Notes under the pieces: generated by a model | Seen by the model: the letters and a program-made list of their open reading frames with translations, nothing else | What the model was told of the DNA's origin: nothing | The model's database searches: none | Shown here: one piece after another, positions 22,160 to 36,612 of the stretch | Layout of the letters: every line of letters begins with the position of its first letter | How positions within the stretch are numbered: position 1 is the stretch's first letter | DNA from: Mogibacterium sp. | Lineage (GTDB): Bacteria > Bacillota > Clostridia > Peptostreptococcales > Anaerovoracaceae | Length of the DNA stretch: 64,000 nt | Assembly (NCBI GenBank): GCA_017404265.1 | Contig: JAFRCS010000006.1 | Location: 1-64,000, forward strand | Direction: 5' to 3' | Position numbers and translations under genes: made by a program

Positions 22160-23194
22160 TTATTTCTTGTATTTCTCTATACATTCTATGAATGTATCGT
22201 AGACTTCGGAATCTACTTTTTCCTTGATGCTGTCGCGCACTCCGGCGCTTTCCTCAACGATGGCGTTATAGGTCTCCTCATCGATCTTCAGTATCTGAGT
22301 GCCGCTGTCCTCGATGGTCTTTACCCTGTCGGCTATCCTGTCATCGGATGCCTGACGGGCATACTCAGTCGCTGTAGCGGCGGCTTCCCTGAGGATCGCC
22401 TGATCTTCTTCCGGCATGTTCTTAAAGAACTCGTCGTTCATAATCAGAGTTATCAGATGCGGCAGGTGGTTGGTCTCAACGACGTAATCCTGCTGCTCAT
22501 ACAGCCTGTTGGACACGATGACCTCGTAAGGGTTCTCCTGCGCGTCTATCGTGTGCTGCTGCAGACCGATATATACCTCGGCAAAGCTCATAGGCGTCGG
22601 ATTGGCTCCAATCGACTTCCAGAAAGCCAGGTGGAACGGATTCTCCATGGTGCGGATCTTCTGTCCCTTGAAGTCTTCTATCGACTTCACCGGCTTGTTG
22701 GTGCTCATGATACGGAAGCCCTGATCGGCTATGCCGAGCAGCTGATATCCGCCGTTTTCATAGACGCTGCTGACCAGACTGCTGAATTCAGGATCATCCA
22801 GTACCTCCCTGCACTCGTCGAGATTCTCAAAGGCGCAAGGCACGTCGAAGATCGCGAGGTCAGGCATGAAGGTGACCTGAGGAGCCGTATTCTGCACTAC
22901 GAACGGGATGTCTCCGTCCTTGCAGGACTCCAGCAGCTCACGGTCGCCGCCCAGAGTTGAGTTGGCATAGACTTGTATCTTTATGCGTCCGTCGCTGAGT
23001 CTGTCTACTTCTTCTGCGAATTTTTCCGCATAGATCTGAGTGACAGTATCCTCCGGGCTCGCTGTCGCGAGCGGATAAGCGTATCTCTGCTCTCCGTCAT
23101 TTTTGCCGCACGCTGTCATAATCATTCCAATCAGCAAAACGCTGATGAACAGTACCGCAAGGCGAAGGTGTTTGTAATCATTCATTTTTCTCAT
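22160..23194 (-). CDS. TRAP transporter solute-binding protein DctP (lipoprotein)
   Basis: The extracytoplasmic receptor of a TRAP transporter, 344 residues. It has a lipoprotein signal peptide (VLLIGMIMTACG), so it would be anchored outside the membrane. The ligand region has the conserved arginine that binds the carboxylate (GQKIRTMENP) and the family stretch FAEVYIGLQQHTIDAQENP. GGAGG lies 6 nt before the ATG. It starts 10 nt after dctM. The operon context (dehydroquinate dehydratase, YdiB-like dehydrogenase) suggests a shikimate- or quinate-like acid as ligand. That is inference. Confidence 0.93.
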   Translation of the reverse strand: MRKMNDYKHLRLAVLFISVLLIGMIMTACGKNDGEQRYAYPLATASPEDTVTQIYAEKFAEEVDRLSDGRIKIQVYANSTLGGDRELLESCKDGDIPFVVQNTAPQVTFMPDLAIFDVPCAFENLDECREVLDDPEFSSLVSSVYENGGYQLLGIADQGFRIMSTNKPVKSIEDFKGQKIRTMENPFHLAFWKSIGANPTPMSFAEVYIGLQQHTIDAQENPYEVIVSNRLYEQQDYVVETNHLPHLITLIMNDEFFKNMPEEDQAILREAAATATEYARQASDDRIADRVKTIEDSGTQILKIDEETYNAIVEESAGVRDSIKEKVDSEVYDTFIECIEKYKK

Positions 23195-23204
23195 GACGCA
23201 CCTC

Positions 23205-24494
23205 CTACAGCAGCACCAGCGAGAATGCCGGTACGAAAGTGAACAGCAGCAGCGCTATCATGAAGAGCCCTATCATAGGCAAAGCCTTCCTTGCTATCTG
23301 CATGACCGGAACGTCCGTCAGCGCGCTGGCTACAAAGAGGTTGACTCCTATAGGCGGAGTTACGAATCCTATAGCCAGGTTGACTACCATTATCACACCG
23401 AACTGGATCGGATCCATGCCGATGCCCTCCGCTATAGGCAGGAGTATCGGTGTAAGGATAAGGATAGCCGGCGTCGTATCCATGACCATTCCAACAAGAA
23501 GCAGGAACAGGTTTATAACGAGCAGTATCACGACCTTGCTTGAGAAGTTGCCGAGTATGAACGAGCTGACCGTCTGAGGCACCTGCATGAGTGTGAGCAC
23601 TCTCGAGAACGCCGTCGACGCCGCCAGTATGAACAGTATCGGCGTGAAAGTCTTTATCGCCTCAACGAGTATCCCCCACAGGTCTTTTACCTTGATCTCC
23701 TTGTATATGAACAGGCTCACTATGAGCGCGTAGTATACAGAGATGACGGCAGCCTCCGTCGGAGACGTGATGCCGGAATATATGCAGCCGAGTACGATGA
23801 CAGGGCTGAGTATGGCCCAGAAGCTCTCCTTGAATACCTTGCCGAAGCCTTTCTCATGAAGCTTTCCGATCTCCGCCTGTATCCTGACTTTGTCTTCACC
23901 GTTCTTTTTGCAAAAGAACACGGCGTAGCCCATCAGGAGAGCGGCAATGACCAGTCCCGGGATGATTCCCGCGAGAAAGAGATCGCTTACCGATGCGCCT
24001 GATGCCATTCCGTACATGATGAACGGAATGCTTGGCGGTATGATGACGCCCAGTCCGCCGGCGACCGCTACGACAGAAGTCGAAAAGGTCTTGTCGTAGC
24101 CCAGCCCGATCAGGATCGGGATGGTCATGCTGCCTACGGCAGCGACGGTCGCCGGAGCCGATCCTGAGATGGCTCCGTAGAACAGGCATGTAATGATGAC
24201 CGCGCAAGGCATGCCCGCTGTGAACCTTCCGAAGAAGTAAGCAAATATGTCGAATATCTTGCGCGATATGCCGCCCTTGGCCATGATGATGCCCGAGAGT
24301 ACGAACATCGGTACAGCCAGCAGCGGAAAGCTGTCAAGTCCGCCAAACATCGCCCTGATGAGATACTTAGCTCCCACCGTGAACGACGGGTCGAAAATGT
24401 GCGGCAGCACGGCTGTTATGCCGAGCGTAATGCCTACAGGTATCGCTATGATAAGGAATACCACAAACAGTATGAACAATAATCCTACCGGCAT
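23205..24494 (-). CDS. TRAP transporter large permease DctM
   Basis: A 429-residue permease with about 12 membrane helices that carries out sodium-driven uptake of the solute delivered by DctP. Characteristic stretches are GLDSFPLLAVPMFVLSG, GSMTIPILIGLGYDK, AVAGGLGVIIPPSIPFIMYG and AIGFVTPPIGVNLFVAS. It lies 2 nt after dctQ and 10 nt before dctP, so all three parts of the transporter are made together. Confidence 0.95.
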   Translation of the reverse strand: MPVGLLFILFVVFLIIAIPVGITLGITAVLPHIFDPSFTVGAKYLIRAMFGGLDSFPLLAVPMFVLSGIIMAKGGISRKIFDIFAYFFGRFTAGMPCAVIITCLFYGAISGSAPATVAAVGSMTIPILIGLGYDKTFSTSVVAVAGGLGVIIPPSIPFIMYGMASGASVSDLFLAGIIPGLVIAALLMGYAVFFCKKNGEDKVRIQAEIGKLHEKGFGKVFKESFWAILSPVIVLGCIYSGITSPTEAAVISVYYALIVSLFIYKEIKVKDLWGILVEAIKTFTPILFILAASTAFSRVLTLMQVPQTVSSFILGNFSSKVVILLVINLFLLLVGMVMDTTPAILILTPILLPIAEGIGMDPIQFGVIMVVNLAIGFVTPPIGVNLFVASALTDVPVMQIARKALPMIGLFMIALLLFTFVPAFSLVLL

Positions 24495-24496
24495 GG

Positions 24497-25069
24497 CTAC
24501 TCCTTTCCGGCCTCGGCCGACGCGGCCTGGCCTGCTTCAATAAATGACTCAGGAGTATTGCGTTCCGGATGAGCAGGATCATAGACGTTCTGTCCGAGAG
24601 AGACTCTCAGTTCTATGATCCACCTCTGGATTATCCTGAACGCTACCAGTACGAACGATACGAAAGGCGCCGCCTGTATGTAATACATCGGTATCCCGAG
24701 GGCCGGGCTCACCTGACCGCTCGTTACGGCCGACATCATGTACGAGAAAGCGAACGGTATCATGTAGAAGAAAAACGCCAGCTCTATCGTATGATTGACG
24801 ACCTTGATTATCGCCTTCGTGCGTCTTGAAAATTGCGCCACGAACTGTTCTATCTTGATCGATATGCACCTCTTGGTGCAGTAGCTTACGCTCAGGAAAC
24901 CTGCCCATATGAACAGATATCTTGTGAGCTCCTCGGTCCACGACAGCGATGCCTTGAGAGCAAATCTCGAGAAGACCTGTACACCCATTATCACTGCCAT
25001 TGCCAGCAGCAGCAGGGTCAGCAGGAATTCCTCCAGATTGTGATCAAGCCATTTTATTGCTTTTGTCAT
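24497..25069 (-). CDS. TRAP transporter small permease DctQ
   Basis: A 190-residue protein with four membrane helices, the small membrane subunit of the TRAP transporter. Family-typical features are LDHNLEEFLLTLLLLAMAVIMGVQVFSRF at the start (shortened: LEEFLLTLLLLAMAVIM) and SWTEELTRYLFIWAGFLS. It starts 15 nt after aroD and ends 2 nt before dctM. Confidence 0.93.
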   Translation of the reverse strand: MTKAIKWLDHNLEEFLLTLLLLAMAVIMGVQVFSRFALKASLSWTEELTRYLFIWAGFLSVSYCTKRCISIKIEQFVAQFSRRTKAIIKVVNHTIELAFFFYMIPFAFSYMMSAVTSGQVSPALGIPMYYIQAAPFVSFVLVAFRIIQRWIIELRVSLGQNVYDPAHPERNTPESFIEAGQAASAEAGKE

Positions 25070-25084
25070 GGCTTTTACCTTTCT

Positions 25085-25846
25085 TTACAGAGCTCCGTGC
25101 AGCAGTGTGAGTACCTGCTTGAGATCCTCGACTCCCATCTGTCCCGGCGCGGAAGCCTTTGCGGCAGCTCCGAAAGTCAGCGCCGATCCGAAGACTTCGC
25201 CTGCAAGACGGCTGATAACGCCTGTTCCTGCCATGGACATTGTGATGATAGGACGGTCGGCGTACTCGTTTGCCATCTCTTCTGTGGCAGCGAGCAGTGT
25301 CAGAACGTCTTTCTTGTTCTGAGGCATGACCGCGATCTTAGGGATGTCAGCTCCCAGATCCTGCATCTTGCGGAGACGTCCTACGATGTCGTCCTTGTCA
25401 GGAGTCTTGAAGAAATCGTGGTTGGATGCTACTACCTTGACGCCTGCAGCGTGAGCTCCGTCGATGATCTTCTTTACGATCTCATCTCCGGTGAACACTT
25501 CTACGTCTACCAGATCTACATAGCCTGTCTGAGCAGCCTTGATGTTGATGTCAGCATAGACCTCATCCTCGATGGCCTTCTCTCCGCCTTCCTTGGAAGT
25601 ACGGAAAGTCATCAGTATAGGCATGTCGCCCAGCACCTCGCGGAGGTCCTTCAGAACGTCCACGAGCTTATCGAAGTCGAATACGTTCTCAAACCAGTCG
25701 ATCCTCCACTCCACTACGTCAGCAGGGAGCTTAGTGATGGCTCTTGCTTCATCAAGGATGGCTTCTTTTGTTACTCCTACGATAGGCACGCAGATCTTAG
25801 GCATGCCTTCGCCGATAACTGTATTTCTTACCTTAACAGTGTTCAT
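25085..25846 (-). CDS. aroD: Type I 3-dehydroquinate dehydratase
   Basis: It interconverts 3-dehydroquinate and 3-dehydroshikimate through a Schiff base. The 253 residues contain the catalytic His in VVASNHDFFKTP and the Schiff-base Lys in PKIAVMPQNKKDVLTLL, with EWRIDWFENV near the start. Type I enzymes serve either biosynthesis or catabolism. Here the gene is between an MFS transporter and a TRAP transporter, next to a YdiB-like dehydrogenase, and no other aromatic biosynthesis genes are present. That favours catabolic use. The E. coli ydiN-ydiB-aroD arrangement is similar. Confidence 0.93.
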   Translation of the reverse strand: MNTVKVRNTVIGEGMPKICVPIVGVTKEAILDEARAITKLPADVVEWRIDWFENVFDFDKLVDVLKDLREVLGDMPILMTFRTSKEGGEKAIEDEVYADINIKAAQTGYVDLVDVEVFTGDEIVKKIIDGAHAAGVKVVASNHDFFKTPDKDDIVGRLRKMQDLGADIPKIAVMPQNKKDVLTLLAATEEMANEYADRPIITMSMAGTGVISRLAGEVFGSALTFGAAAKASAPGQMGVEDLKQVLTLLHGAL

Positions 25847-25880
25847 TGTTTCCTTCCTTTCTGTTAAGCGCGTGCGCAGA

Positions 25881-27095
25881 TTACTCCTCTGCAGCCGCGA
25901 GCATCTTGCTGTAGTTCATGTTTACGAATACTCCCAGCAGAGTTCCGATAGCTGTCAGAACGATGTTCATTACCATTACTCCGGACGGAGTCATCGAAGC
26001 AGCTGCTGTAAGGAGTGTGTAGTTGCACAGCGATGATGCGATCATTACGAGAGCTGTAACTGTTCCCTTGATCTTAGGGAAGAGCATGTTGCATACGGAA
26101 GTTGCGATCTGCAGAAGTCCGCCTGCTCCGAACCAGCCGAGTACGAATGCGCCGATCTTGAGGATTCCCTGTGAAGGAGCCATAAGTACTGCTACCATCA
26201 TGAGAGCGCAGACAGCAGGGTATACCATTACGAATCTCACGTCCTTGACCTTGCTTGTCAGCAGAGCTGTGACAACGAGTCCGATCATTGTTCCGATAGC
26301 ATAGAACGACTGCATGGACTGCGGCTCAGCCCAGCCAACGACGTCCTTTGCGAAGTTCTGTGCGCAGTTGAGCCAGAGCTGGAATGTACCTGTGCATGTG
26401 AATCCGATGAGGATCATAGCAATGGAACCAGCGGAGAAGTTAGCGTGCTTGATGCTCTGAAGAAGTCCTTCCTTCTTCTCTGTTTCAGCCTTCTTGTCAG
26501 TATCAGGCAGAGGGAAGAAGAGGATGAGAGCCATCAGTACGAGGTAAGCGATTCCGACGATGTAGAACAGCTTGTTGTAAGAAACAAGTCCGCCTGCAGT
26601 CTGGCCTACTGTGATTCCGAGGAAGAACGGCAGCAGGAACTGGGAACCGGAGATAGCAAACTTGATGCCCATTGTAGCAACGCCAGGAGCCTTGTTGATG
26701 ATCTCAGCAACAGCAGGGTAGATACCTGTGTCGAGGAACGAGTTTGCGATACCGCCTACGATAGCGCATACATAAGCGATCTTATAGCCTGCGCCGCCGC
26801 CTGCGTTGAATGCCATTGCGAGTCCGATCAGATAAACGGCATAAGCGAATCCGCCGATAGCTGTCGAGATCCTGCGTCCGAGTTTGTCCGAAAGAGGTCC
26901 TGCGAACGGGAGCGCGATAAGTCTTCCGAGACCGAGAGCTGCAGCGATAGCTGTGATAGCCATAGCCTCAACGTTCCAGCTTCCGGCAAGAGCGTCCTTG
27001 ATTACAGCCTGTCCGAGAACGGAGCAGCCGATACCGTGCAGGAAGTAGTTCAGATAAAGAACTATTACACTTGGTAAATACTTTTTGTTAGTCAT
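25881..27095 (-). CDS. MFS transporter, YdiN-like
   Basis: A 404-residue major facilitator with 12 predicted helices in two halves separated by a charged loop (LPDTDKKAETEKKEGLL). The MFS signature after helix 2 reads GPLSDKLGRRIST. The opening SVIVLYLNYFLHGIGCSVL resembles the E. coli YdiN/YdiM group. It lies between the dehydrogenase (45 nt upstream) and aroD (34 nt downstream). It is a plausible carrier of shikimate, quinate or a product, possibly exporting the end product while the TRAP system imports the substrate. Substrate and direction are inference. Confidence 0.88.
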   Translation of the reverse strand: MTNKKYLPSVIVLYLNYFLHGIGCSVLGQAVIKDALAGSWNVEAMAITAIAAALGLGRLIALPFAGPLSDKLGRRISTAIGGFAYAVYLIGLAMAFNAGGGAGYKIAYVCAIVGGIANSFLDTGIYPAVAEIINKAPGVATMGIKFAISGSQFLLPFFLGITVGQTAGGLVSYNKLFYIVGIAYLVLMALILFFPLPDTDKKAETEKKEGLLQSIKHANFSAGSIAMILIGFTCTGTFQLWLNCAQNFAKDVVGWAEPQSMQSFYAIGTMIGLVVTALLTSKVKDVRFVMVYPAVCALMMVAVLMAPSQGILKIGAFVLGWFGAGGLLQIATSVCNMLFPKIKGTVTALVMIASSLCNYTLLTAAASMTPSGVMVMNIVLTAIGTLLGVFVNMNYSKMLAAAEE

Positions 27096-27140
27096 GATTA
27101 TTTCCTCTCATTTTCCATATATCTTTTGATTTGTTTTAAC

Positions 27141-28019
27141 TTAGTCATCGTAGCTGATGCCGAGGACTTCCTTCATGTGCTCGATAGGCATTGGCTTGCC
27201 TGTCCAGAGCTCGAATCCGGCAGCTCCCTGGAAGAGCATCATGCCCAGTCCGTTCATGGTCTTGCAGCCGACTTCCTTGGCCATCTTTCTCATCTTTGTC
27301 AGAAGGCATCCGTAAGGAACGTCTACAACGATGAGCTCAGGTCTGAAGAAGCTCTTGTCAGGAACAACGGAAACGTCCTCGAGCGGCTTCATGCCTGCGC
27401 CTGTAGCGTTTACGAAGAGGTAGCTGTCTGCCATCTCTCTGCGGAGAGCCTCAGTATCTGCGAGGTCAAACATCTTTGCTTTGCAGTTCGTGTTCTCGTT
27501 GATCTTCTTGACTGTGTCCTCTCCTACCTCATAGAACTTGTCCTTGATGTTGAAGATGGAGATCTCAGCAACTCCATCAAGAGCAGCCTGGATCTCGATC
27601 GCTGTAGCTGCACCGCCGGCTCCTACGATAGTCATCTTCTTGCCGATAGGATCGATGTCGTTATCCTTGATGGCTGCCATGAAGCCGATACCGTCTGTGA
27701 TGTATCCCTTCAGGTGACCGTTATCGTTGACGATCGTGTTTACTGCTCCGCAGAGTTCTGCTGCAGGGTCGAGTTCGTCAAGATACTGGCCTACCAGCGT
27801 CTTGTTAGGCATCGATACGTTGGACCCTCTCATCTTGAGTGTACGGATGGCCTTTACAGCGTCCTCGATCTCATCTGCGCCTACCTCGAATGCAAGATAT
27901 GCATAGTCAGCGCCTACTTCTGCGAATGCTTCGTTCTGCATAGCAGGCGAGCTGGAGTGACGTATAGGATAAGCCATGAGACCGATAAGTTCGGTATGTC
28001 CTGTGATTCTTTCTGCCAT
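27141..28019 (-). CDS. aroE: Shikimate/quinate dehydrogenase, YdiB-like
   Basis: A 292-residue NAD(P)-dependent dehydrogenase that interconverts shikimate and 3-dehydroshikimate (or quinate and dehydroquinate). Substrate motifs are YPIRHSSSPAMQNEAF and SNVSMPNKTL, with the catalytic Lys. The cofactor loop is GAGGAATAIEIQ, and the end motif GMMLFQGAAGFELWTG is very close to E. coli YdiB, as is INENTNC. ATG 28019 was chosen because AAAGGAG lies upstream. It is the first gene of the operon that ends at 22160, and it is divergent from the LysR gene. Confidence 0.9.
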   Translation of the reverse strand: MAERITGHTELIGLMAYPIRHSSSPAMQNEAFAEVGADYAYLAFEVGADEIEDAVKAIRTLKMRGSNVSMPNKTLVGQYLDELDPAAELCGAVNTIVNDNGHLKGYITDGIGFMAAIKDNDIDPIGKKMTIVGAGGAATAIEIQAALDGVAEISIFNIKDKFYEVGEDTVKKINENTNCKAKMFDLADTEALRREMADSYLFVNATGAGMKPLEDVSVVPDKSFFRPELIVVDVPYGCLLTKMRKMAKEVGCKTMNGLGMMLFQGAAGFELWTGKPMPIEHMKEVLGISYDD

Positions 28020-28162
28020 TTTTATTTCTCCTTTATTTTGATCCTGTGATCTTTCAGGCTTATTCAGCCTCTCCCGGTACAATGTCTCTGATTCACCACA
28101 AGCCAGAAGACAACATTGTTAAAACAATAACTATTTCTTGTTTATATTTTAACTATCTTCTT

Positions 28163-28215
28163 TGATACAGTCCAATATCATATATTGCAATTATTGATAG
28201 CTTTAACGTATCAAT
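28163..28215. promoter_or_regulatory. LysR-type operator between aroE and lysR
   Basis: The palindrome ATTGATA (28193-28199), N9, TATCAAT (28209-28215) has the T-N11-A core typical of LysR regulators. A second site TGATA-N8-TATCA lies at 28163-28180. Both are in the divergent promoter region, the usual place for such sites. The first recurs upstream of the flavoenzyme gene. Confidence 0.65.
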
Positions 28216-28284
28216 TGGATATGCTTTGTGATAATATGTTTTACAGACAGGAAAAACGTTGAAATACTGCAAAAGAGGTGCAAA

Positions 28285-29193
28285 ATGACTCTTAACCAGC
28301 TCAGATACTTCCAGGCAGTCGCCAGAGCTCTCAACTTCCGTGCCGCGGCAGAAGAACTGTACATTTCGCAGCCGTCTCTTTCCCGCTCGATTGATTCGCT
28401 CGAACAGGAACTGGGCGTGATGCTCTTTGAACGCGCCGGCAGAGGGATATCCCTCACCGGAAGCGGCAGGCTGTTTCTGGAATACACCAACCGCATTCTC
28501 GACGAATGCGATATCGCTATATATAAAATGAAGGAACTTTCGTCGACGGGCGGCCGCATCGACATCGGATACGTCTTCCCGCTGGCCAATTACTACATCC
28601 CTCACAAGGTGCGCTCCTTCCTGGACATGCCGGAGAACGAGCACGTAACTTTCGGCTTCAACCAGAACAGGACCTCATCGATCATACGGGATATAAAGAG
28701 CGGCAAGCTGGATGTCGGATTCTGCGGATATTCGGAAAATGAGGAAGAACTTGAATTCGTCCCCATCCTGAAGCAGGAGATGGTGATCATTACTTCGAAC
28801 GAACACCCTCTCGCCGGCAGGGACAAACTGTCGATAAAGGAACTCGATAACTATCCTGTTATCGGCTACGACCGCTTATCAAATCTCGGAGGATATACAA
28901 AGAGGCTCTACAGAAATCTGGGAATAAAACCGGACATAGTCTGCGAGTGTTCGGACGAGAACGCCATACAGGCGCTGGTAAGAGAACAGTTCGGGATAGC
29001 TCTTGTAGCCAGGGTCGACATCCTGAACGACAAATATCTGAAGATCCACAGCGTGTCGGATGTTGATCTGATCCACTATGTCAACGCGGTATGGCTGAAG
29101 AACCATTACCTGATGCCGGCCACAAAACGCTTCATTGATTTCATGATCGGCGGGTCTGAACTGAATCCGGAAGAGGTAAAAGCTATTATCTGA
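28285..29193 (+). CDS. LysR-family regulator of the shikimate-type locus
   Basis: A 302-residue transcription activator. Residues 1-60 are the LysR helix-turn-helix (LNQLRYFQAVARALNFRAAAEELYISQPSLSRSI in part). Residues 90-290 form the periplasmic-binding-protein-like effector domain. The ATG at 28285 is preceded by AGAGGTG. It is transcribed divergently from aroE and followed by the flavoenzyme gene. In Listeria the LysR protein QuiR controls two operons of shikimate/quinate genes and responds to shikimate, which is a good precedent for this layout. The effector here is not proven. Confidence 0.9.
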   Translation: MTLNQLRYFQAVARALNFRAAAEELYISQPSLSRSIDSLEQELGVMLFERAGRGISLTGSGRLFLEYTNRILDECDIAIYKMKELSSTGGRIDIGYVFPLANYYIPHKVRSFLDMPENEHVTFGFNQNRTSSIIRDIKSGKLDVGFCGYSENEEELEFVPILKQEMVIITSNEHPLAGRDKLSIKELDNYPVIGYDRLSNLGGYTKRLYRNLGIKPDIVCECSDENAIQALVREQFGIALVARVDILNDKYLKIHSVSDVDLIHYVNAVWLKNHYLMPATKRFIDFMIGGSELNPEEVKAII

Positions 29194-29238
29194 TACCACA
29201 GTATCAATAATCTCTATTTGATACCTTCAGGCTATCAA
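29191..29238. promoter_or_regulatory. Second LysR-type operator cluster, upstream of the flavoenzyme gene
   Basis: TGATA-N6-TATCA (29191-29206) overlaps the lysR stop codon. TTGATA-N9-TATCAA (29218-29238) repeats exactly the half-sites and spacing seen at 28193-28215. This suggests that the same regulator controls the flavoenzyme. Confidence 0.6.
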
Positions 29239-29239
29239 A

Positions 29240-29273
29240 AACGAGCAAGAAAGATATTTCTCTTTTGCTCGTT
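29240..29273 (+). terminator. Hairpin between lysR and the flavoenzyme gene
   Basis: Arms AACGAGCA and TGCTCGTT enclose an 18-nt loop and are followed by ATTTATTT. It may terminate lysR, or, if transcription starts near the operators, act as an attenuator in the flavoenzyme leader. Confidence 0.55.
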
Positions 29274-29331
29274 ATTTATTTATCATATAAGTACCACAAG
29301 ACAGCATGATGACACTTGGAGGGATCAAAAC

Positions 29332-31326
29332 ATGAAGAAAGATTACCCAAAGATTTTTGAGCCGATCACAGTAAGAAAAACTGTTTTCAAGAACAGAGTA
29401 GTCATGACCCCGATGGGCACAAACTACGCTGATCCTGACGGCGGCATCAATGACGATCATATCAATTACTACAAGCTTAGAGCCAAAGGCGGCACGGGCC
29501 TCATTATCGTAGAGAACGTCTGCGTAGACTTCCCTACAGGCTCCAACGGAACAAGCCAGCTGAGACTCGACCATGACATGTTCATGCCAAAGCTTTACAA
29601 GCTGACAGAAACAGTCCACGGCGAAGGCGGACTCATTGCCGTACAGATCAACCACGCGGGAGCATCGGCTTCATCCGCACGTACGGGCGTTCCTACAGTT
29701 TCGTCCTCGACAGTTCCATCGAAGCTCGGCGGCGAGGCACCTCGTCCGCTCGAGAAAGATGAGATCGAAGCTATAGTCAAGAAATACGGCGAAGCAGCTA
29801 AGCGCGCTGTACAGGCAGGATTTGACGCTATCGAAGTCCACTGCGGACACTCCTACCTCATCAGCCAGTTCCTCTCGCCTATCTACAACAAGAGAACTGA
29901 CGAATTCGGCGGAAGCGCAGAGAACAGAGCGCGTCTTGCCAGAATGGTCATCGATGAAGTAAGAAAGCAGGTAGGACCATTCATTCCTATCCTCGCAAGG
30001 ATAAGCGCAGACGAGTTCCTCGAGGGCGGAAACAACCTCGACGACTGCCTCGAGTATCTGCAGTACTTCGGAGACGAGGTCGACGTATACAACGTATCCG
30101 CGGCCCTCAACCCATCGCTTCAGTATCAGATCGACAGCAACTGCTATCCTGACGGCTGGAGAGCATACCTCGCAAAGGCTGTTAAGGAAAGATTCGGCAA
30201 GCCGGTAGTCACGATGGGCAACATCAGAGACCCTAAGGTAGCCAACGACATCCTCGAGAGAGGCGACGCTGACTTCATCGGCATCGGCAGAGGCCTGATC
30301 GCTGACCCTGACTGGGTAAACAAGGTGGAATTCGGTGATGTGTGCGACATCAGAAAGTGCATCAGCTGCAACATCGGATGCGCCGGAAACCGTATCCAGA
30401 ACAACAGACCTATCAGATGCACAGTCAACCCGGCTGTCATAGAGGGTGAAGAGTATAAGAAGCTCAAGGTCAACAAGCCATGCAACGTTGTCGTTATCGG
30501 CGGCGGTACCGCTGGCATGGAAGCCGCATGCACAGCTGCGGAAGTAGGCTGCACGGCATTCCTGATCGAGAAGGCAGACCACCTCGGCGGACTCGCTTAC
30601 GAAATCTCGAAGTTCCCTGACAAGAGCAGACTCAGAGACTTCCCTGATTACCTCGAGAGAAGGATCAAGAAGCTCCACAACCTGCACGTGTTCCTGAACA
30701 CAGAGGCTACTCCTGAGTTCATCAGGACTCTGAATCCGGACATCATCGTGAACTCAACAGGTTCGCTGCCACTGATCCTCCCTATCCCTGGACTCAAGGA
30801 AAACGTAGGCAAGGGCAAAGTGCAGACAGTTCTCGGCGTTATCGACAATCTGGACAACTATCCTGAGGACTGCACAGGCAAGAAGGTCGTTGTTATCGGC
30901 GCCGGCGCCGTAGGACTCGATGTAGTGGAATTCTTCGCGCCTAGAGGAGCGGACACCACGGTAATCGAGATGCTGCCGTATATCGTCGGACCGGCACTCG
31001 ATCCTATCACAAAGGTCAGCATCGCTGATCTGATGAATAAGTACAACGTACACCAGAGACCGTCCACAGCTCTTCAGGAAGTAAAGCCTGACTGCTTCGT
31101 GGTCAAGAATCCGGACGGAAGCATGGAAGAAGTTGAGTTCGATTACGGATGCATCTGCATGGGACTCAAGTCCAACAATCCGGTACTCGACATGCTGAAG
31201 GAAGAGTTTGCTGATGTCGAACTGATGAACATCGGCGACTCCAAGAGACAGAGAAGGATCATCGAAGGTACGGAAGAAGGACGCGCCATCGTGAAGGTTC
31301 TTGAGAAGAAGGGATTCTTTGCATAA
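29332..31326 (+). CDS. OYE-type iron-sulfur flavoenzyme, 2-enoate / 2,4-dienoyl-CoA reductase-like
   Basis: A 664-residue oxidoreductase with three parts. Residues 1-330 form an FMN TIM barrel of the old yellow enzyme family (FKNRVVMTPMGTNYADPDGG, HCGHSYLISQFLSPIYNKRTDEFGGS in part, GIGRGLIADPDW). A 4Fe-4S site follows, with CISCNIGC and a later Cys in IRCTVNP. The C-terminal FAD/NAD(P) part has GGGTAGMEAA and GAGAVGLDVVEFF. This is the layout of 2,4-dienoyl-CoA reductase, 2-enoate reductase and BaiCD-type enzymes. GGAGG precedes ATG 29332. Shikimate and dehydroshikimate are 2-enoates, so reduction of such a ring acid is an attractive but untested role. Confidence 0.92.
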   Translation: MKKDYPKIFEPITVRKTVFKNRVVMTPMGTNYADPDGGINDDHINYYKLRAKGGTGLIIVENVCVDFPTGSNGTSQLRLDHDMFMPKLYKLTETVHGEGGLIAVQINHAGASASSARTGVPTVSSSTVPSKLGGEAPRPLEKDEIEAIVKKYGEAAKRAVQAGFDAIEVHCGHSYLISQFLSPIYNKRTDEFGGSAENRARLARMVIDEVRKQVGPFIPILARISADEFLEGGNNLDDCLEYLQYFGDEVDVYNVSAALNPSLQYQIDSNCYPDGWRAYLAKAVKERFGKPVVTMGNIRDPKVANDILERGDADFIGIGRGLIADPDWVNKVEFGDVCDIRKCISCNIGCAGNRIQNNRPIRCTVNPAVIEGEEYKKLKVNKPCNVVVIGGGTAGMEAACTAAEVGCTAFLIEKADHLGGLAYEISKFPDKSRLRDFPDYLERRIKKLHNLHVFLNTEATPEFIRTLNPDIIVNSTGSLPLILPIPGLKENVGKGKVQTVLGVIDNLDNYPEDCTGKKVVVIGAGAVGLDVVEFFAPRGADTTVIEMLPYIVGPALDPITKVSIADLMNKYNVHQRPSTALQEVKPDCFVVKNPDGSMEEVEFDYGCICMGLKSNNPVLDMLKEEFADVELMNIGDSKRQRRIIEGTEEGRAIVKVLEKKGFFA

Positions 31327-31430: not shown

Positions 31431-32432
31431 CTACCGACCTGTGAAGTGCGGAGCATACTTTGCAGCGATCCTGACCGCTTCTGCCATTCCGACTGCTTCT
31501 GCAATGCCCTTGCCCGCGATATCGAACGCCGTTCCATGAGCGGCAGACGTGCGCAATATAGGCATGCTGTTTGTGATCTCTACAGTGCGATCGAAATCCA
31601 GCGTCTTAGCGGCTATATGCCCCTGATCATGATAAAGAGAAAGGACAGCGCTGAACCTTCCGATTGCCGCATGGTGGAAGACCGTATCTGCAGATTCCGG
31701 ACCTGTTACATCGTAGCCTCTGCTCCTGAGATCCTCTACCGCAGGGACGATCTCACTGACCTCTTCCCATCCGAAAAGACCGTGTTCACCTGAATGCGGG
31801 TTGAGTCCCGCCACTGCCATCGTTCCTTCAGTCACTCCCAGTCTGGCAAGAGCCTCTGTGCACCTTTCAACATAATCTATGACCCTTTCCTTTGTGATCA
31901 TATCGACCATCGCGCGCATCGACACATGCCTTGTAAGGAAAAATATCCTCATTCCGCACGTTTCAAACATCGCCAAAGGATCATTCGTATTTGTCAGTTT
32001 TCCGAAGATCTCGGTATGCCCTATGAAATCTACGCCCGCTGCGCGGAGCGCCTCCTTGTTTATTGGAGCTGTAGATATTGCGTCAGCTTTCCCTTCCATG
32101 GTGATTTGCGTGGCCTTTTCGATATACTCGAATGCCGCCCTGCCGCACATCGCGCTGATCTCTCCATACCTGAATCTGCCCATGTCTACATTATCAAGAT
32201 CGATCAGGTTCAGAACGCCTGCGCTGTAATCTCCACTTTCAGGAGCCTCCACGATGTTGATCCTCAGATCAGCACCTGTTACCGCTATCGCCTCCTCAAG
32301 GATCTGCGCGTCACCGATCACGATGCAGTTTGTCTCCGCAAAGAGGTCTTTGTCTGCAACAGTCCGTGCAACTATCTCAGGGCCGATCCCTGCAGGATCT
32401 CCCATAGTTACTGCAATCAGTGGTTTATCCAT
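31431..32432 (-). CDS. PdxA-family 4-phospho-sugar-acid (hydroxythreonine-4-phosphate) dehydrogenase
   Basis: A 333-residue NAD-dependent, metal-requiring dehydrogenase of the PdxA family. Recognisable motifs are TMGDPAGIGPEI, the metal His in FIGHTEIFGKL, the central GLNPHSGEHGLFGWEE and the second metal His in YHDQGHIAAKTLDFD. PdxA serves vitamin B6 synthesis, while PdxA2 relatives oxidise 4-phospho-D-threonate or -erythronate to give dihydroxyacetone phosphate. No pyridoxine genes are near and it is the last gene of a sugar-phosphate operon, so the catabolic role is favoured. The usual partner kinase (DUF1537) is not in the window. It begins 4 nt after rpiB. Confidence 0.88.
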   Translation of the reverse strand: MDKPLIAVTMGDPAGIGPEIVARTVADKDLFAETNCIVIGDAQILEEAIAVTGADLRINIVEAPESGDYSAGVLNLIDLDNVDMGRFRYGEISAMCGRAAFEYIEKATQITMEGKADAISTAPINKEALRAAGVDFIGHTEIFGKLTNTNDPLAMFETCGMRIFFLTRHVSMRAMVDMITKERVIDYVERCTEALARLGVTEGTMAVAGLNPHSGEHGLFGWEEVSEIVPAVEDLRSRGYDVTGPESADTVFHHAAIGRFSAVLSLYHDQGHIAAKTLDFDRTVEITNSMPILRTSAAHGTAFDIAGKGIAEAVGMAEAVRIAAKYAPHFTGR

Positions 32433-32436
32433 GATA

Positions 32437-32874
32437 TCAGAACCAGATGTCTTCTATTTCGTTTATGCGGCGAAGATGCTTGCCTGCCTCGAAATCCGTA
32501 GTCATCCATGTATCAATGATCTGGAATGCAAGCTCCTGACTTATCATCCGGGCTCCCATGCAGACAACGTTTGCGTTATTGTGGCGTCTGCACATCTCCG
32601 CCATCTCTACAGATGTGCAAAGTGCGGCTCTGATGCCCGGCACCTTATTGCACGCTATGCTGATACCGATTCCGGATCCGCAGACGGCGATGCCTCGCTC
32701 AGCCTCGCCGGACGCCACAGCGCGTCCTACAGCGTGTCCGTACTTCGGATAGTCTACCGACTCAGTCGAGTCACATCCTACATCGATTACCTCATGGCCT
32801 TCGCTGATCAGCTTTGCCTTGATCGCTTCCTTGAGTTCATATGCTGCGTGATCGCTTCCAACAACCAATTTCAT
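32437..32874 (-). CDS. rpiB: RpiB/LacAB-type sugar-phosphate isomerase
   Basis: A 145-residue isomerase of the RpiB family. It interconverts ribose-5-phosphate and ribulose-5-phosphate, or related tetrose/hexose phosphates in catabolic paralogues. The start MKLVVGSDHAAYELKEAI, the active-site Cys in GIAVCGSGIGISIACNK and MCRRHNNANVVCMGAR are typical. Within an operon holding transketolase and ribulose-phosphate epimerase, the pentose phosphate role is the simplest reading. It lies 25 nt after pfkA. Confidence 0.92.
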   Translation of the reverse strand: MKLVVGSDHAAYELKEAIKAKLISEGHEVIDVGCDSTESVDYPKYGHAVGRAVASGEAERGIAVCGSGIGISIACNKVPGIRAALCTSVEMAEMCRRHNNANVVCMGARMISQELAFQIIDTWMTTDFEAGKHLRRINEIEDIWF

Positions 32875-32899
32875 TGTATTTGTCCTCCAATCAGTTTAC

Positions 32900-33883
32900 T
32901 CAGCGTGTTAGTGATTCAAGCATATCAATGATATACTCTTCCGTATCCTTCATCGTTGACTCCATTGTCAGTGCTTCATCGATGTCGTAATCGGTGAAGA
33001 TACCGTTCCTGTATACAACCACACGGTTTTTTGCGCCTTCAGCCAAAAGATCAATAGCCTTGGCGCCCATTATTGAAGCATATACCCTGTCGCGGCAGGT
33101 CGGATTGCCTCCGCGCTGTATATAGCTCAGGGTCGTAGTACGTACCCGGATCCCCCCGGCTTTCTCCAGCTTTCCGGCTATCTCCTCTGCACGGCCGACA
33201 CCTTCTGCATTGATGAGGATGTTGTTGTTCTTGCCTGTTGCCCGGTGCGCGGCGACTTTCTCCATTACTTTCTTTTCATCACCATCGTATGTCTCGGGTA
33301 TAAGCACCTGTTCTGCTCCTGCGGCTATACCGCTCCATAATGCAATATAACCGGCATCGCGCCCCATCACCTCTATAAGACAACACCTCTCGTGCGATGA
33401 AGCTGTATCCCTTATGTTGTCTATCGCCCTCATCGCCGTATTGACTGCAGTATCGAAGCCTATGGTGTACTCCGAACACCCGATATCTCCATCTATAGTC
33501 CCCGGGATACCGATCACGTTTACTCCCTTGCGGGCAAGGCTCTGCGCTCCTCTGAACGATCCGTCTCCGCCGATCACGACGAGCGCGTCGATCCCGTGTT
33601 TCCGGCAGATATCTGCCGCCTTCTGCTGGTATTCATCAAGCTTCATCTCAAGGCACCGCTCCGTTTCGAGTATAGTGCCTCCCCGTTCAAGGATATTGCT
33701 GACAGAGTCCATTCCCATATCGACGAATTCCTCGTTCAGCAGTCCGAGATATCCTCTGCGTATCCCTTTTACCTTGAAGCCCTTGAATATTCCTCTTCTG
33801 ACTACAGCTCTGATAGCCGCATTCATCCCCGGCGCGTCGCCGCCGCTGGTCAGAACCCCTACAGTCTTTATATCAGTATTCAT
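32900..33883 (-). CDS. pfkA: 6-phosphofructokinase, ATP type (PfkA family)
   Basis: A 327-residue kinase of the PfkA family that phosphorylates fructose-6-phosphate. It has LTSGGDAPGMNAAIRAVV, VIGGDGSFRGAQ (Gly after GGD, typical of ATP users) and the catalytic loop GIPGTIDGDI. The last is unusual: the common sequence is TIDND, with Asn between the two Asp. Here it is Gly, while both Asp are kept. VMGRDAGYIALWSGIA and QRGGNPTCRDR complete the substrate site. It starts 8 nt after the gntR stop. A second PFK of the PPi type lies in the same operon. Confidence 0.9.
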   Translation of the reverse strand: MNTDIKTVGVLTSGGDAPGMNAAIRAVVRRGIFKGFKVKGIRRGYLGLLNEEFVDMGMDSVSNILERGGTILETERCLEMKLDEYQQKAADICRKHGIDALVVIGGDGSFRGAQSLARKGVNVIGIPGTIDGDIGCSEYTIGFDTAVNTAMRAIDNIRDTASSHERCCLIEVMGRDAGYIALWSGIAAGAEQVLIPETYDGDEKKVMEKVAAHRATGKNNNILINAEGVGRAEEIAGKLEKAGGIRVRTTTLSYIQRGGNPTCRDRVYASIMGAKAIDLLAEGAKNRVVVYRNGIFTDYDIDEALTMESTMKDTEEYIIDMLESLTR

Positions 33884-33891
33884 TTATGCCC

Positions 33892-34608
33892 TCACTTGCC
33901 GGAGAGCTCCTCCTCAAAGTAACTGCCTCTGACCTTTCTGCTCAGGTTGTGTTTATCTCCCTCCCTGATCGCGTCCAGCAGCAGTCTGTGAGCGTTTATG
34001 AGTTCTTCCGTCTTTCCTCCGTTTATCATTTCGGATACAGTGCGGAATCTGATTGCATATGTCAGCGTCCTCACGACTCTGTTGACCTTGTCCGCCATCG
34101 GGTTCTTTCCCATTTCTGCGATCTTGTCATGGAAACGGTTGTCAACATCGAAGAACCTGTTGACAGGATCCTCCGAGCTTATAGCCTCCTTCATTTCTTC
34201 CAGGAGTTCCTCAAGCTCATTGAGTTCCTCTTCATCGTGATGATCTATAGCAAGCTTCATCATTCCTGCTTCTGTCATCTCGCGCAGTTCCATCAGGTTT
34301 TCGAACGACTCCTGATTGAGAATGATACCGTAGATCATAGGATCGATCATGCTCTCCTTGTAACCGCTGCAAACGAAGGTTCCTTCCGAGCGCTTGCTCT
34401 CGAGTACTCCGAGATATGCAAGTATCTTGATGGCCTCGCGAACGCTGCTCCTGGCAACGCCGAGCGAGTCGGCGAGATCCGGTTCAGGAGGAATCTTGTC
34501 TCCCGGCTTCAGATCTCCGTTTCTGATGGCGTCGGTCAGCTGATTGATGACGCTCTGTACTACCGATTCCTTTTTTAAACTTTTAAGATATGTAGGTGCT
34601 GGTGTCAT
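33892..34608 (-). CDS. GntR-family regulator, FCD subfamily, of the sugar-phosphate operon
   Basis: A 238-residue repressor-type protein. The winged helix is at about residues 15-80 (GDKIPPEPDLADSLGVARSSVREAIKIL in part). The FCD ligand domain is at about 95-225, with DVDNRFHDKIAEM and an acidic LDAIREGDKHN end. It lies inside the operon between the two phosphofructokinase genes. An operator-like TTGTATGACAT sits upstream of it, and two TTGTCTGACAT-type sites flank the operon promoter, so it is the natural candidate to regulate all eleven genes. The effector is probably an organic acid or sugar phosphate. Confidence 0.9.
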   Translation of the reverse strand: MTPAPTYLKSLKKESVVQSVINQLTDAIRNGDLKPGDKIPPEPDLADSLGVARSSVREAIKILAYLGVLESKRSEGTFVCSGYKESMIDPMIYGIILNQESFENLMELREMTEAGMMKLAIDHHDEEELNELEELLEEMKEAISSEDPVNRFFDVDNRFHDKIAEMGKNPMADKVNRVVRTLTYAIRFRTVSEMINGGKTEELINAHRLLLDAIREGDKHNLSRKVRGSYFEEELSGK

Positions 34609-34650
34609 AAAGACGTTCTCCTTTATATATTATCTCTGTCCCTTTTTCTT

Positions 34651-34668
34651 TTGTATGACATAATACAA
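34651..34668. promoter_or_regulatory. GntR operator upstream of gntR
   Basis: The palindrome TTGTAT (34651-34656), N6, ATACAA (34663-34668) lies 42 nt before the gntR start. Its left part TTGTATGACAT differs at one base from the TTGTCTGACAT sites at 41959 and (inverted) 41992. Confidence 0.6.
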
Positions 34669-34712
34669 AGCTAGGATAACAATTCTCACACCTAATGTCA
34701 AATCATCGTTTT

Positions 34713-35939
34713 CTATTCCTGCAGCGTAAGGTGCTGAGGCACGCCTTCCGAGTAATACGGCTCAATCTCTCCCATAATCAGCGGACGCGCATACTCAATA
34801 AACTCATTACTGACGTATGTTCCGTCATTTATGATCCATTCAAGAGGCACTTTGCGCTCAACATTTGCTACCTCATGTATGTCGAAGCTGTCATAAGAGG
34901 TGAGATATGGCCTTCTCGAGTCGACCTTGATGGTTATCATCTCACCGGTATTTCCTTCAAATGCTTTCTGAGCTGCAAGGTATCCCGCATTATACGCCTC
35001 ATCTGCGTCTGTACGCGACACCACGTGCGAAGCGCACCTCTGAAGTGTCGAGAATTCGATCGATCTTGCCTTTACTCCGGTTTTCTCTGTTATGAGTGAA
35101 GCGAGATATGCGCCGACTCCGGAGAGCTGTTTGTGTCCGAAAGCATCAAGCTTGTCCGAAGTATTGCTGAGTTCACATACGAAGCGTCCGTCAGCAAGTT
35201 TGACCCCTTCAGATACAGCGATGACTATCGAGTTTTTTTCTTTAGCGAGATTACCTACGCGTTTTACGAAATCATCCGGATTAAAGTCCACCTCAGGGAG
35301 ATAGATAAGGTCAGGAGCATTGTTTCCCAGAGCTGCAGCTGCCGTGAGCCATCCCGCATGACGTCCCATGATCTCTACGATCACTGCGGAAGTCCTGTAA
35401 GGTCCATAGCAATCGTTATCTACAACGATTTCTTTAAGCGATGTAGCAATATACTTCGCGGCAGAGCCGTAGCCTGGGCAGTGGTCTGTCACAGGCAGGT
35501 CGTTATCGATGGTCTTTGGGATGCCCATGAACCTTTGAGGTTTCCCATGCGCTGCAGCATAATCGGAAAGCATCTTTACTGTATCCATCGAGTCGTTTCC
35601 GCCGTTGTAGAGGAAGTACTGGATGTCGTATTTCTCCATGACAGAGAAGATCTTTTCATATACATCTTCATTCCCCTCTATTTTTGGCAGCTTATAGCGG
35701 CATGAACCGAGGAATGCTGATGGTGTTCTCTTCAAGAGTGAAACATCCTGCGCATTTTTCACCTGTTTTCTGAGATCGATTATGTTCTCGTTGAGGAAGC
35801 CCTCGATGCCGTAGTGCATTCCGTATATCTTCTTTACGCCGGCATCCTTCGAAGCTTCGATGGCGCCTGCGAGACTTGAGTTGATCACGGCCGTCGGACC
35901 GCCCGACTGACCTATGATTATATTGCCCTTTATACTCAT
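34713..35939 (-). CDS. pfp: 6-phosphofructokinase, pyrophosphate-dependent type
   Basis: A 408-residue phosphofructokinase whose active site looks pyrophosphate dependent. The phosphoryl-donor loop reads NGGNDSMDT instead of GGDGS, and the catalytic loop reads IPKTIDNDLP, where Lys marks PPi users. Other PFK features are GQSGGPTAVINSSL and VEIMGRHAGWLTAAAAL. Such enzymes can also phosphorylate sedoheptulose-7-phosphate, allowing a pentose phosphate route without transaldolase. ATG 35939 was chosen because GGGAGG lies upstream, within the rpe end. The gene begins 1 nt after the rpe stop. Confidence 0.88.
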   Translation of the reverse strand: MSIKGNIIIGQSGGPTAVINSSLAGAIEASKDAGVKKIYGMHYGIEGFLNENIIDLRKQVKNAQDVSLLKRTPSAFLGSCRYKLPKIEGNEDVYEKIFSVMEKYDIQYFLYNGGNDSMDTVKMLSDYAAAHGKPQRFMGIPKTIDNDLPVTDHCPGYGSAAKYIATSLKEIVVDNDCYGPYRTSAVIVEIMGRHAGWLTAAAALGNNAPDLIYLPEVDFNPDDFVKRVGNLAKEKNSIVIAVSEGVKLADGRFVCELSNTSDKLDAFGHKQLSGVGAYLASLITEKTGVKARSIEFSTLQRCASHVVSRTDADEAYNAGYLAAQKAFEGNTGEMITIKVDSRRPYLTSYDSFDIHEVANVERKVPLEWIINDGTYVSNEFIEYARPLIMGEIEPYYSEGVPQHLTLQE

Positions 35940-35940
35940 T

Positions 35941-36612
35941 TTAAAATCCTCCCTTGATCGCTCTGATAGCAGCAGCTCTGTACTTTGCTCCGAAAACCGC
36001 GGAGCCTGCAACTATTAGCTCTGTTCCTGCTTCTCTTACTATATCTGCATTGCCTTCGCCGACTCCGCCGTCTATCTCTATAACGTAGCTGTATCCCTTT
36101 TCATCTTTAAGAGCGCTGTAGTAGCGGATCTTGTCCAGCGAATCAGGCATGAACTTCTGTCCTCCGAATCCCGGCTCTACCGACATGACGAGTATGAGAT
36201 CAATGTCATCGAGATACTCATCAAGGACTTCCGGCGCCGTCTTTGGCTTGACTGAGACTCCGGCCTTAACGCCGCAGGAATGAATATGGTCAAGCGTATG
36301 CTTCAGATCACTGCAAGCCTCGTAATGCACTGTAATGAACTCAGTATTGTCAGTGACGAAATTCTCAATGTATCTGTCCGGATCCTTTATCATCAGATGA
36401 ACATCGTAAGGAACAGTCGTGTAGGAGTTGAGGCTCTTCATTACACTGGCTCCGAAGCTGATATTCGGAACGAACATCCCATCCATTACATCGATATGCA
36501 GATAGTCGATACCGTATCCGCATACATCTGCAACATCCTCACCGAGCCTTGCAAAATCCGCAGCAAGTATTGACGGAGATATCATTGCTTTATCTACTTT
36601 TGCCATTTCCAT
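35941..36612 (-). CDS. rpe: Ribulose-phosphate 3-epimerase
   Basis: A 223-residue TIM-barrel enzyme that interconverts ribulose-5-phosphate and xylulose-5-phosphate. It shows PSILAADFARLGEDV, the metal/catalytic YLHIDVMDGMFVPNISFG, DVHLMI, VEPGFGGQKF and EIDGGV. The position between the GltS-like permease and the PPi-type PFK, in an operon with transketolase and RpiB, completes the non-oxidative pentose phosphate set except for transaldolase. Confidence 0.93.
   Translation of the reverse strand: MEMAKVDKAMISPSILAADFARLGEDVADVCGYGIDYLHIDVMDGMFVPNISFGASVMKSLNSYTTVPYDVHLMIKDPDRYIENFVTDNTEFITVHYEACSDLKHTLDHIHSCGVKAGVSVKPKTAPEVLDEYLDDIDLILVMSVEPGFGGQKFMPDSLDKIRYYSALKDEKGYSYVIEIDGGVGEGNADIVREAGTELIVAGSAVFGAKYRAAAIRAIKGGF

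Follow-up and report, generated by a model that had tools for sequence, protein, structure and literature searches.

What does an iron-sulfur flavoenzyme of the old yellow enzyme (OYE) type do next to genes of quinate and shikimate metabolism? The question is raised by positions 22,160 to 31,326 of a 64,000-nucleotide stretch of Mogibacterium sp. DNA (contig JAFRCS010000006.1 of assembly GCA_017404265.1; the whole 64 kb stretch is called the window below). Here six minus-strand genes in the order AroE-MFS-AroD-DctQ-DctM-DctP, which include a major facilitator superfamily (MFS) transporter and a complete tripartite ATP-independent periplasmic (TRAP) transporter, are divergent from a plus-strand LysR-type regulator gene and the gene of the flavoenzyme. 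The original prediction held that the organism imports shikimate- or quinate-like acids and reduces their ring double bond as an electron sink, towards cyclohexane carboxylates. It is partly supported: this biochemical idea remains the best-supported reading of the locus, the substrate, the role as an electron sink and the cyclohexane end product being its inferred parts. We consider it likely that the locus is a LysR-controlled catabolic cluster by which quinate or shikimate is imported and converted to 3-dehydroshikimate, whose ring double bond is then reduced by the flavoenzyme.

Linkage of the flavoenzyme gene to aroD and aroE

The flavoenzyme belongs to the aroD/aroE set, and its linkage to these genes is real and beyond chance. 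In a survey of 99 genomes, the source genome included, its orthologues form a group with 82-99% identity within the genus and 63% in one genome of the order, while other OYEs reach at most 39%. The AroE-LysR-OYE arrangement is kept in all 20 orthologue loci returned, the window's own among them, and all eight genes are found in 17 of 19 wider loci (several of these 17 have the OYE gene cut at a contig end, and in L044 it lies in two frames), the remaining two being interrupted by contig ends. A broader sample comprised the best 80 of 132 named loci, with identities of 55-99% and many mutually close relatives; tblastn detects AroE in 69 of them, AroD in 58, the MFS transporter in 65, DctM in 53 and LysR in 64. 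When frames with a match spanning fewer than about 560 residues are left out, 75 of these loci yield 76 copies of the family, of which 64 are accompanied by AroE, more than by any other partner. AroE, AroD or a type II dehydroquinase is present in the locus for 50 of the 51 copies that have at least 5 kb on each side, and in the lone exception (L102, Anaerobutyricum hallii) the AroE match is cut by the locus end; the same 51 copies are accompanied by LysR in 39 cases, DctM in 34 and the MFS transporter in 44. The gene caller overlooked AroD in L063 and L094, and tblastn detects both.

Two controls gave the opposite picture. None of 20 stretches (6-20 kb) around unrelated OYEs of the relatives (27-37% identity) contains an AroE or AroD match, and no OYE match is found at eight loci where AroD lies apart from the cluster (L052, L054, L056-L061; 3-20 kb). 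In an even draw of 398 genomes of the phylum the enzyme occurs in only four, the source genome included, and the other three carriers (55-63% identity) have AroD 2.3-3.6 kb away, plus AroE and the MFS transporter. The gene set is thus spread over many genera, yet about 1% of the sampled species have it. The original prediction had joined the flavoenzyme to aroD and aroE, had named homologous loci never linked to these genes as evidence to the contrary, and had proposed a neighbourhood search in other gut anaerobes; the search returned linked loci in nearly every full-flank copy and in all three further carriers of the phylum draw, from many genera.

The order of the genes varies while their content is kept. 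Besides the divergent order of the window, AroE comes after OYE in Blautia, Fusicatenibacter and Mogibacterium timidum, the order OYE-AroE-MFS-AroD-DctQMP is found in L082 and L084, and AroD-AroE-MFS-OYE in Sarcina. Seven Clostridium loci have AroE-AroQ-OYE adjacent (in one, L133, AroE lies in two frames), with AroQ, a type II dehydroquinase, instead of the type I enzyme. That the reaction is kept while the gene is swapped argues strongly that the pathway includes the dehydroquinase step.

Proteins encoded by the cluster

All eight cluster genes are intact, each with a Pfam match over its cut-off, and the predicted gene set (a YdiB-like dehydrogenase, a YdiN-like MFS transporter, AroD, a full TRAP transporter, a divergent LysR gene and a 664-aa OYE) is present as described. 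AroE (27141..28019, minus strand), a YdiB-like quinate/shikimate dehydrogenase, is assigned to the shikimate dehydrogenase family by equivalog NF001313 (485 bits, cut-off 431); it is 49% identical to Escherichia coli YdiB and falls narrowly under the cut-off of the YdiB equivalog NF009390 (338.7 vs 349 bits, with a 313-aa frame scanned). Its nearest solved relative is 3tnl, titled shikimate dehydrogenase, which we take to be a Listeria protein. AroD (25085..25846, minus strand) is a type I 3-dehydroquinate dehydratase by TIGR01093 (259.5 bits, cut-off 139.3) with 56% identity to E. coli AroD, and the His of SNHDF and the Lys of PKIAVMP, presumably the catalytic His and the Schiff-base Lys, are invariant among 14 aligned AroDs. 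The MFS transporter (25881..27095, minus strand; PF07690) is related to E. coli YdiN (27% identity) and YdiM (29%). The TRAP system consists of the solute-binding protein DctP (22160..23194, minus strand; PF03480, 1.2e-74; lipobox visible by eye), the large permease DctM (23205..24494, minus strand; PF06808, 1.2e-110; TIGR00786 over cut-off) and the small permease DctQ (24497..25069, minus strand; PF04290, 1.4e-31). The nearest relatives of DctP in the PDB are SiaP and other DctP-type proteins; solved relatives that bind sialate and other ligands are uninformative as to the TRAP substrate. The LysR-type regulator (28285..29193, plus strand; PF00126 and PF03466; start placed at an ATG by choice) matches no equivalog model at cut-off among the best 25 of 54 matched.

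The modest identity of the MFS protein to YdiN and YdiM, the lack of a LysR equivalog and the AroE score just below the YdiB cut-off would agree with a cluster for another ring acid of similar shape, in which AroE and AroD are paralogues with shifted specificity. We regard this as very improbable: AroD is too similar to the E. coli enzyme, AroE exceeds the cut-off of the shikimate dehydrogenase equivalog, and in Clostridium it is a type II dehydroquinase that stands in for AroD.

The original prediction had also pointed to a missing dehydroshikimate dehydratase, and no TIM barrel of this type (PF01261) is found among the eight cluster proteins, a genome-wide search not having been made. The cluster thus lacks the 3-dehydroshikimate dehydratase that defines oxidative quinate/shikimate degradation of the qui/qa type.

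Catabolic or biosynthetic role of AroD and AroE

The source genome (1.83 Mb, 97.7% complete) has as its nearest named relatives metagenome-assembled genomes (MAGs): some, from sheep and goat gut, are called Mogibacterium sp., and others, of the RUG series (which we take to be of rumen origin), uncultured Clostridiales. It contains a single type I AroD and a single AroE, the only Shikimate_dh_N match, both inside the cluster, and no match for the dehydroquinate synthase aroB (PF01761), the shikimate kinase aroK (PF01202) or the chorismate synthase aroC (PF01264); the type II dehydroquinase was not included in the search. Because aroB, aroK and aroC are not found, the gene content indicates that the AroD/AroE set is catabolic in the source organism, and a biosynthetic role was rejected for it; the intermediates would have no visible route into aromatic biosynthesis. 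Within the genus (47 genomes), all 17 genomes that have AroD but no chorismate synthase carry the cluster, with OYE in 16 of them; in the remaining one, G006, the contig breaks off past AroE. Of the 19 genomes with the cluster, 16 lack the aroC gene, as do nine of the 28 others (Fisher p 8e-4), in a comparison of related and partly incomplete genomes where G006 and G035 were scored as without OYE; a hand count of genomes at least 90% complete finds no chorismate synthase in eight of nine cluster genomes vs two of ten others.

The alternative is salvage, in which imported quinate or shikimate feeds chorismate and the aromatic amino acids and OYE is incidental. A shikimate kinase gene lies near the cluster in 23 of the 80 best loci (e.g., L081:12746-13534), with 22 of the 23 products being 257-281 aa long and the one member scanned being a chorismate mutase-shikimate kinase fusion, and because of this gene the imported shikimate may in those species also be diverted to aromatic biosynthesis. 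Moreover, three of the 19 cluster genomes of the genus do have aroC. Both observations speak against a purely catabolic role. As the main purpose of the cluster, however, salvage is in our view highly improbable, the least likely of the explanations considered, in light of aroB, aroK and aroC not being found in the source genome, the lack of aroC in most cluster genomes of the genus and the palindrome, described below, that the OYE gene shares with the aro operon.

In two genomes of the genus, G009 and G035, the contig with chorismate synthase also bears a second AroD. The G035 cluster (L053, G035:C10:62000-81999) has OYE and MFS genes without their middle parts next to retained AroE, AroD and TRAP genes, as if the set were in joint decay, an assembly error being also possible.

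A palindrome shared by the two LysR-flanking gaps

The palindrome TGATA-N9-TATCA, a putative LysR operator, is found in the aroE-lysR gap (28195..28213), and a second operator-like copy of the same pattern is located upstream of the OYE gene (29219..29237). These are the only two exact matches in the window, where 0.08 are expected, and allowing one mismatch adds none, with 2.3 expected. Among 24 loci, two of which (L042 and L067) are one record counted twice, the exact palindrome is present in both gaps of 14 and, with at most one mismatch, in both gaps of 20, vs 0.04% of shuffled gap pairs, the pattern having been selected after viewing the gap alignment of relatives. No exact palindrome occurs in the gaps of L074, L076 and L077, the three tested loci from outside the genus and Proteocatella. 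Genome-wide the pattern is unspecific (5 sites vs 4 for the reversed control), and its weight as evidence comes from the conserved pair of copies spaced 1 kb apart. Because the same palindrome stands in both gaps, one regulator probably controls the aro operon and the flavoenzyme gene alike. Both gaps also contain a second short element, CCACAAG (28096 and 29294), which appears conserved in relatives; the whole window has three copies of it on the plus strand and one on the minus strand.

The flavoenzyme and its proposed reaction

The 664-aa flavoenzyme (29332..31326, plus strand; PF00724 and PF07992), for which we propose the function of a 3-dehydroshikimate (or shikimate) ring reductase, has all the features of the OYE-4Fe4S-FAD, or dienoyl-CoA reductase-like, enzymes: Oxidored_FMN and Pyr_redox_2 domains in one chain, a four-Cys motif between them and the active-site Tyr. 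The OYE site (H170/H173/Y175) and the cluster cysteines (C343/C346/C350/C363) are conserved in the alignment, and the predicted structure (predicted local distance difference test score, pLDDT, 91.9) matches 2-naphthoyl-CoA reductase (27% identity) and 2,4-dienoyl-CoA reductase (25%) over the full length. The His-His-Tyr site is common to the window enzyme and a free-standing thermophilic OYE, whereas the aligned 2,4-dienoyl-CoA reductase has only the Tyr; such a site would fit a substrate with a free carbonyl or carboxylate rather than a CoA thioester. Residues R78, R117, N107, Q266, D268 and K290 are specific to the family, being present in at least 95% of 80 family rows and at most 25% of 30 others. 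In a quick tree of 77 rows the family separates from 19 other OYEs as a single clade (Shimodaira-Hasegawa-like approximate likelihood ratio test, SH-aLRT, 100). The window enzyme is placed there not beside M. timidum but among MAG sequences that bear the names Oscillibacter, Eubacterium and Lachnospiraceae, and this placement suggests horizontal transfer of the flavoenzyme, with the reservation that the names and contents of MAGs can be wrong. No NCBIfam model reaches its cut-off among the best 25 of 78 matched, and three known functions were rejected by score: the bile acid enzyme BaiCD (NF041087, 456 bits vs cut-off 825), the bilirubin reductase BilR (NF045599, 358.5 vs 750) and the mycofactocin OYE (TIGR03997, 412.8 vs 793).

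The proposed pathway would start with import of quinate and/or shikimate by the TRAP system. The YdiB-like AroE would, judging by its family, oxidize quinate to 3-dehydroquinate and interconvert shikimate and 3-dehydroshikimate, the latter reaction being the point of entry for shikimate, and AroD would dehydrate 3-dehydroquinate to 3-dehydroshikimate, a step for which its family affiliation provides good support. Within the OYE enzyme, electrons of NAD(P)H would reach FMN by way of FAD and the 4Fe-4S cluster, and a hydride and a proton would be added across the ring double bond, most likely that of 3-dehydroshikimate. This bond is conjugated to both the ketone and the carboxylate, making the compound an enone and an enoate at once, and by general OYE chemistry 3-dehydroshikimate should be the better substrate. 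A further reduction, of the saturated keto acid by AroE, could precede export, for which the MFS protein is a candidate; an operon with two transporters would suit import of a substrate and export of a product. The compound would in this way dispose of reducing equivalents and serve as an electron sink, with quinate taking up one NAD(P)H net, provided that the ketone is reduced too, and shikimate likewise.

It is also conceivable that AroE and AroD take the quinate half of an ester while OYE reduces the hydroxycinnamate half, as plant acids like chlorogenate hold both, and related iron-sulfur flavoenzymes are described as reducing other gut substrates, e.g., bile acids and bilirubin (PMC11574389). 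Such chlorogenate-type use is improbable, since no phenolic-ester esterase is encoded by the eight cluster genes or by the neighbour families found in at least four of the 80 best loci (one member per family was scanned, two gave no match, and cluster 27 and rarer neighbours were left out), and the short Clostridium set AroE-AroQ-OYE shows no phenolic-acid gene.

Loci with an IolN-type ring hydrolase

The choice between 3-dehydroshikimate and shikimate as the substrate of the flavoenzyme is informed by six loci with an IolN-type hydrolase (L104, L111, L113, L116, L118 and L093; e.g., L118:4175-16796), which come from Hespellia stercorisuis, two Hespellia MAGs, two Faecalicatena and Robinsoniella. 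The member scanned (L118) scores 532.8 vs a cut-off of 245 with a model named 3-dehydro-scyllo-inosose hydrolase. Along with OYE, AroD, the MFS transporter and TRAP, these loci contain IolN, two zinc-type dehydrogenases of the medium-chain dehydrogenase/reductase (MDR) type, an IolO-like TIM barrel and a 3-hydroxy-3-methylglutaryl (HMG)-CoA-lyase-like protein, and five of the six keep OYE and AroD with no AroE within 10 kb. Because AroD makes do there without AroE, 3-dehydroshikimate rather than shikimate is indicated as the OYE substrate. If the enzyme instead reduced shikimate itself, in the manner of the clostridial 2-enoate reductase, the rest of the pathway would be the same; shikimate is an alpha,beta-unsaturated acid, and AroE, the commonest partner of the family, could supply it. 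Apart from the loci without AroE, the activation of its double bond by the carboxylate alone makes this version unlikely, even if it is the one among the alternatives that deserves most attention.

IolN cuts a ring 1,3-diketone in the IolM-IolN-IolO pathway of inositol ring cleavage. Reduced dehydroshikimate, if oxidized at the C5 hydroxyl, would become a 1,3-diketone of the type that IolN uses, and the IolN loci may therefore carry out anaerobic cleavage of the quinate ring without an aromatic intermediate. In the quick tree the Robinsoniella OYE stands apart from the OYEs of the other IolN loci, and for this reason the association with IolN probably arose or moved more than once. The source genome has no ring hydrolase in a search with NF041098. 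We tentatively put forward, as a possibility and with clearly less confidence than the cluster's own pathway, that the whole OYE clade is the ring reductase of quinate and shikimate metabolism in gut and rumen. It would define an O2-independent, non-aromatic route with two outcomes. One would be excretion of saturated ring acids, from which cyclohexanecarboxylate and in turn hippurate could arise. The other, for Hespellia, Faecalicatena and Robinsoniella, would be oxidation of the reduced ring to a 1,3-diketone, which the IolN-type hydrolase would cut for carbon.

Several points weigh against reductive use of quinate or shikimate, or narrow its reach. The substrates of the TRAP, MFS and OYE proteins are not readable from sequence, and the flavoenzyme family stands at the distance that is usual between iron-sulfur flavoenzymes of differing substrates. 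No dehydroquinase is present in the locus for six of the 51 full-flank copies (L090, L102, L120, L123, L126 and L138), so the dehydroquinase step is not universal. A second, separate OYE clade (32-36% identity) is found near AroE paralogues within several loci of the family itself (L099, L120, L123, L126, L138 and L141), which means that linkage to AroE is not unique to the family of the window enzyme. Reduction need not be the end point, as the IolN loci may imply cleavage over an excreted cyclohexane acid there. Finally, L173 (G078:C93:20000-35941) has a 74% identical IolN, TRAP and a type II dehydroquinase with no OYE in 16 kb, which argues against a strict tie between IolN and OYE.

Some of these loci have further genes. 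The second-clade loci also encode an MFS protein and a xylose-isomerase-like TIM barrel near the AroE paralogue, and this clade perhaps represents a parallel pathway for another ring acid. L173 also encodes an aldehyde ferredoxin oxidoreductase-like enzyme, an Ldh_2 dehydrogenase and a 4-carboxy-4-hydroxy-2-oxoadipate aldolase-like protein. In the window itself, the cluster is followed by an operon (31431-36612) with a PdxA-like dehydrogenase and a GntR regulator, both scanned, and RpiB, two phosphofructokinases and a ribulose-phosphate epimerase, read by eye only, an unusual sugar or sugar-acid set. These genes were rejected as cluster members: among 19 wide relative loci, several of which end within or shortly past the OYE gene, only L034 has one of them (RpiB).

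Comparison with known systems

Plant food brings quinate and shikimate into the gut. The gene set is found in cultured Coprococcus comes, Roseburia inulinivorans, Anaerobutyricum hallii, Fusicatenibacter saccharivorans and Blautia sp., which we take to be gut species. According to older work, as cited in PMC7558350, gut flora convert shikimate to cyclohexanecarboxylate, which mammalian tissue turns into hippurate. A 2024 study (PMC11602726) describes the enzymes that degrade quinate in the gut as mostly unknown; of the two routes it names as proposed, one is the reduction of quinate to hexahydrobenzoic acid. A word search of the main text of a survey of iron-sulfur flavoenzyme clusters (PMC7371122) finds no word starting with shikimate, dehydroquin or TRAP, and the part of PMC8262752 covered mentions neither shikimate nor quinate. 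Searches of the open-access literature, judged by titles and the openings of abstracts and with few subscription papers and preprints covered, showed no description of this gene set among the papers listed, and a published one may exist. The compact and conserved set offers candidate genes for the reduction of quinate and shikimate in the gut, a process whose enzymes largely lack identification, and gives for that reaction one named enzyme that is present in cultured gut species.

The closest known arrangement is ydiN-ydiB-aroD of E. coli, which has the same three functions adjacent, with the identities given above. The E. coli locus differs in that no TRAP or OYE-type enzyme is among 12 annotated features (K-12 1768000-1780000). 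E. coli uses AroD for biosynthesis, whereas the later genes of aromatic biosynthesis are not found in the source genome. Downstream of ydiN-ydiB-aroD, E. coli K-12 has an annotated CoA transferase, acyl-CoA dehydrogenase and electron transfer flavoprotein subunit (ydiF, ydiO and ydiQ), and it is a matter of speculation that these are a CoA-dependent counterpart that reduces the same ring acids. Listeria has shikimate/quinate (qui) operons that are controlled by a LysR-type regulator (QuiR) and lead via dehydroshikimate dehydratase to protocatechuate; the likeness is LysR control of a hydroaromatic operon, and the difference is that the window cluster has a reductase and no dehydroshikimate dehydratase. 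The inositol cleavage pathway IolM-IolN-IolO shares the IolN-type hydrolase with the six related loci, but the companion dehydrogenases and TIM barrel scanned there fall under the IolM and IolO cut-offs.

With BaiCD/BaiH, BilR and the 2,4-dienoyl-CoA and 2-naphthoyl-CoA reductases the window enzyme shares its domains, the CX2CX3CX12C motif and the full-length fold. It differs from the gut iron-sulfur flavoenzymes in being far under the cut-offs for BaiCD, the mycofactocin OYE and BilR, in its separate position in the tree and in its linkage to aro genes. A chemical precedent comes from lactobacilli, which, reportedly from the work of Whiting and Coggins in the 1970s, reduce quinate and shikimate to dihydroshikimate and dihydroxycyclohexane carboxylate; this would be the same chemistry as that proposed here.

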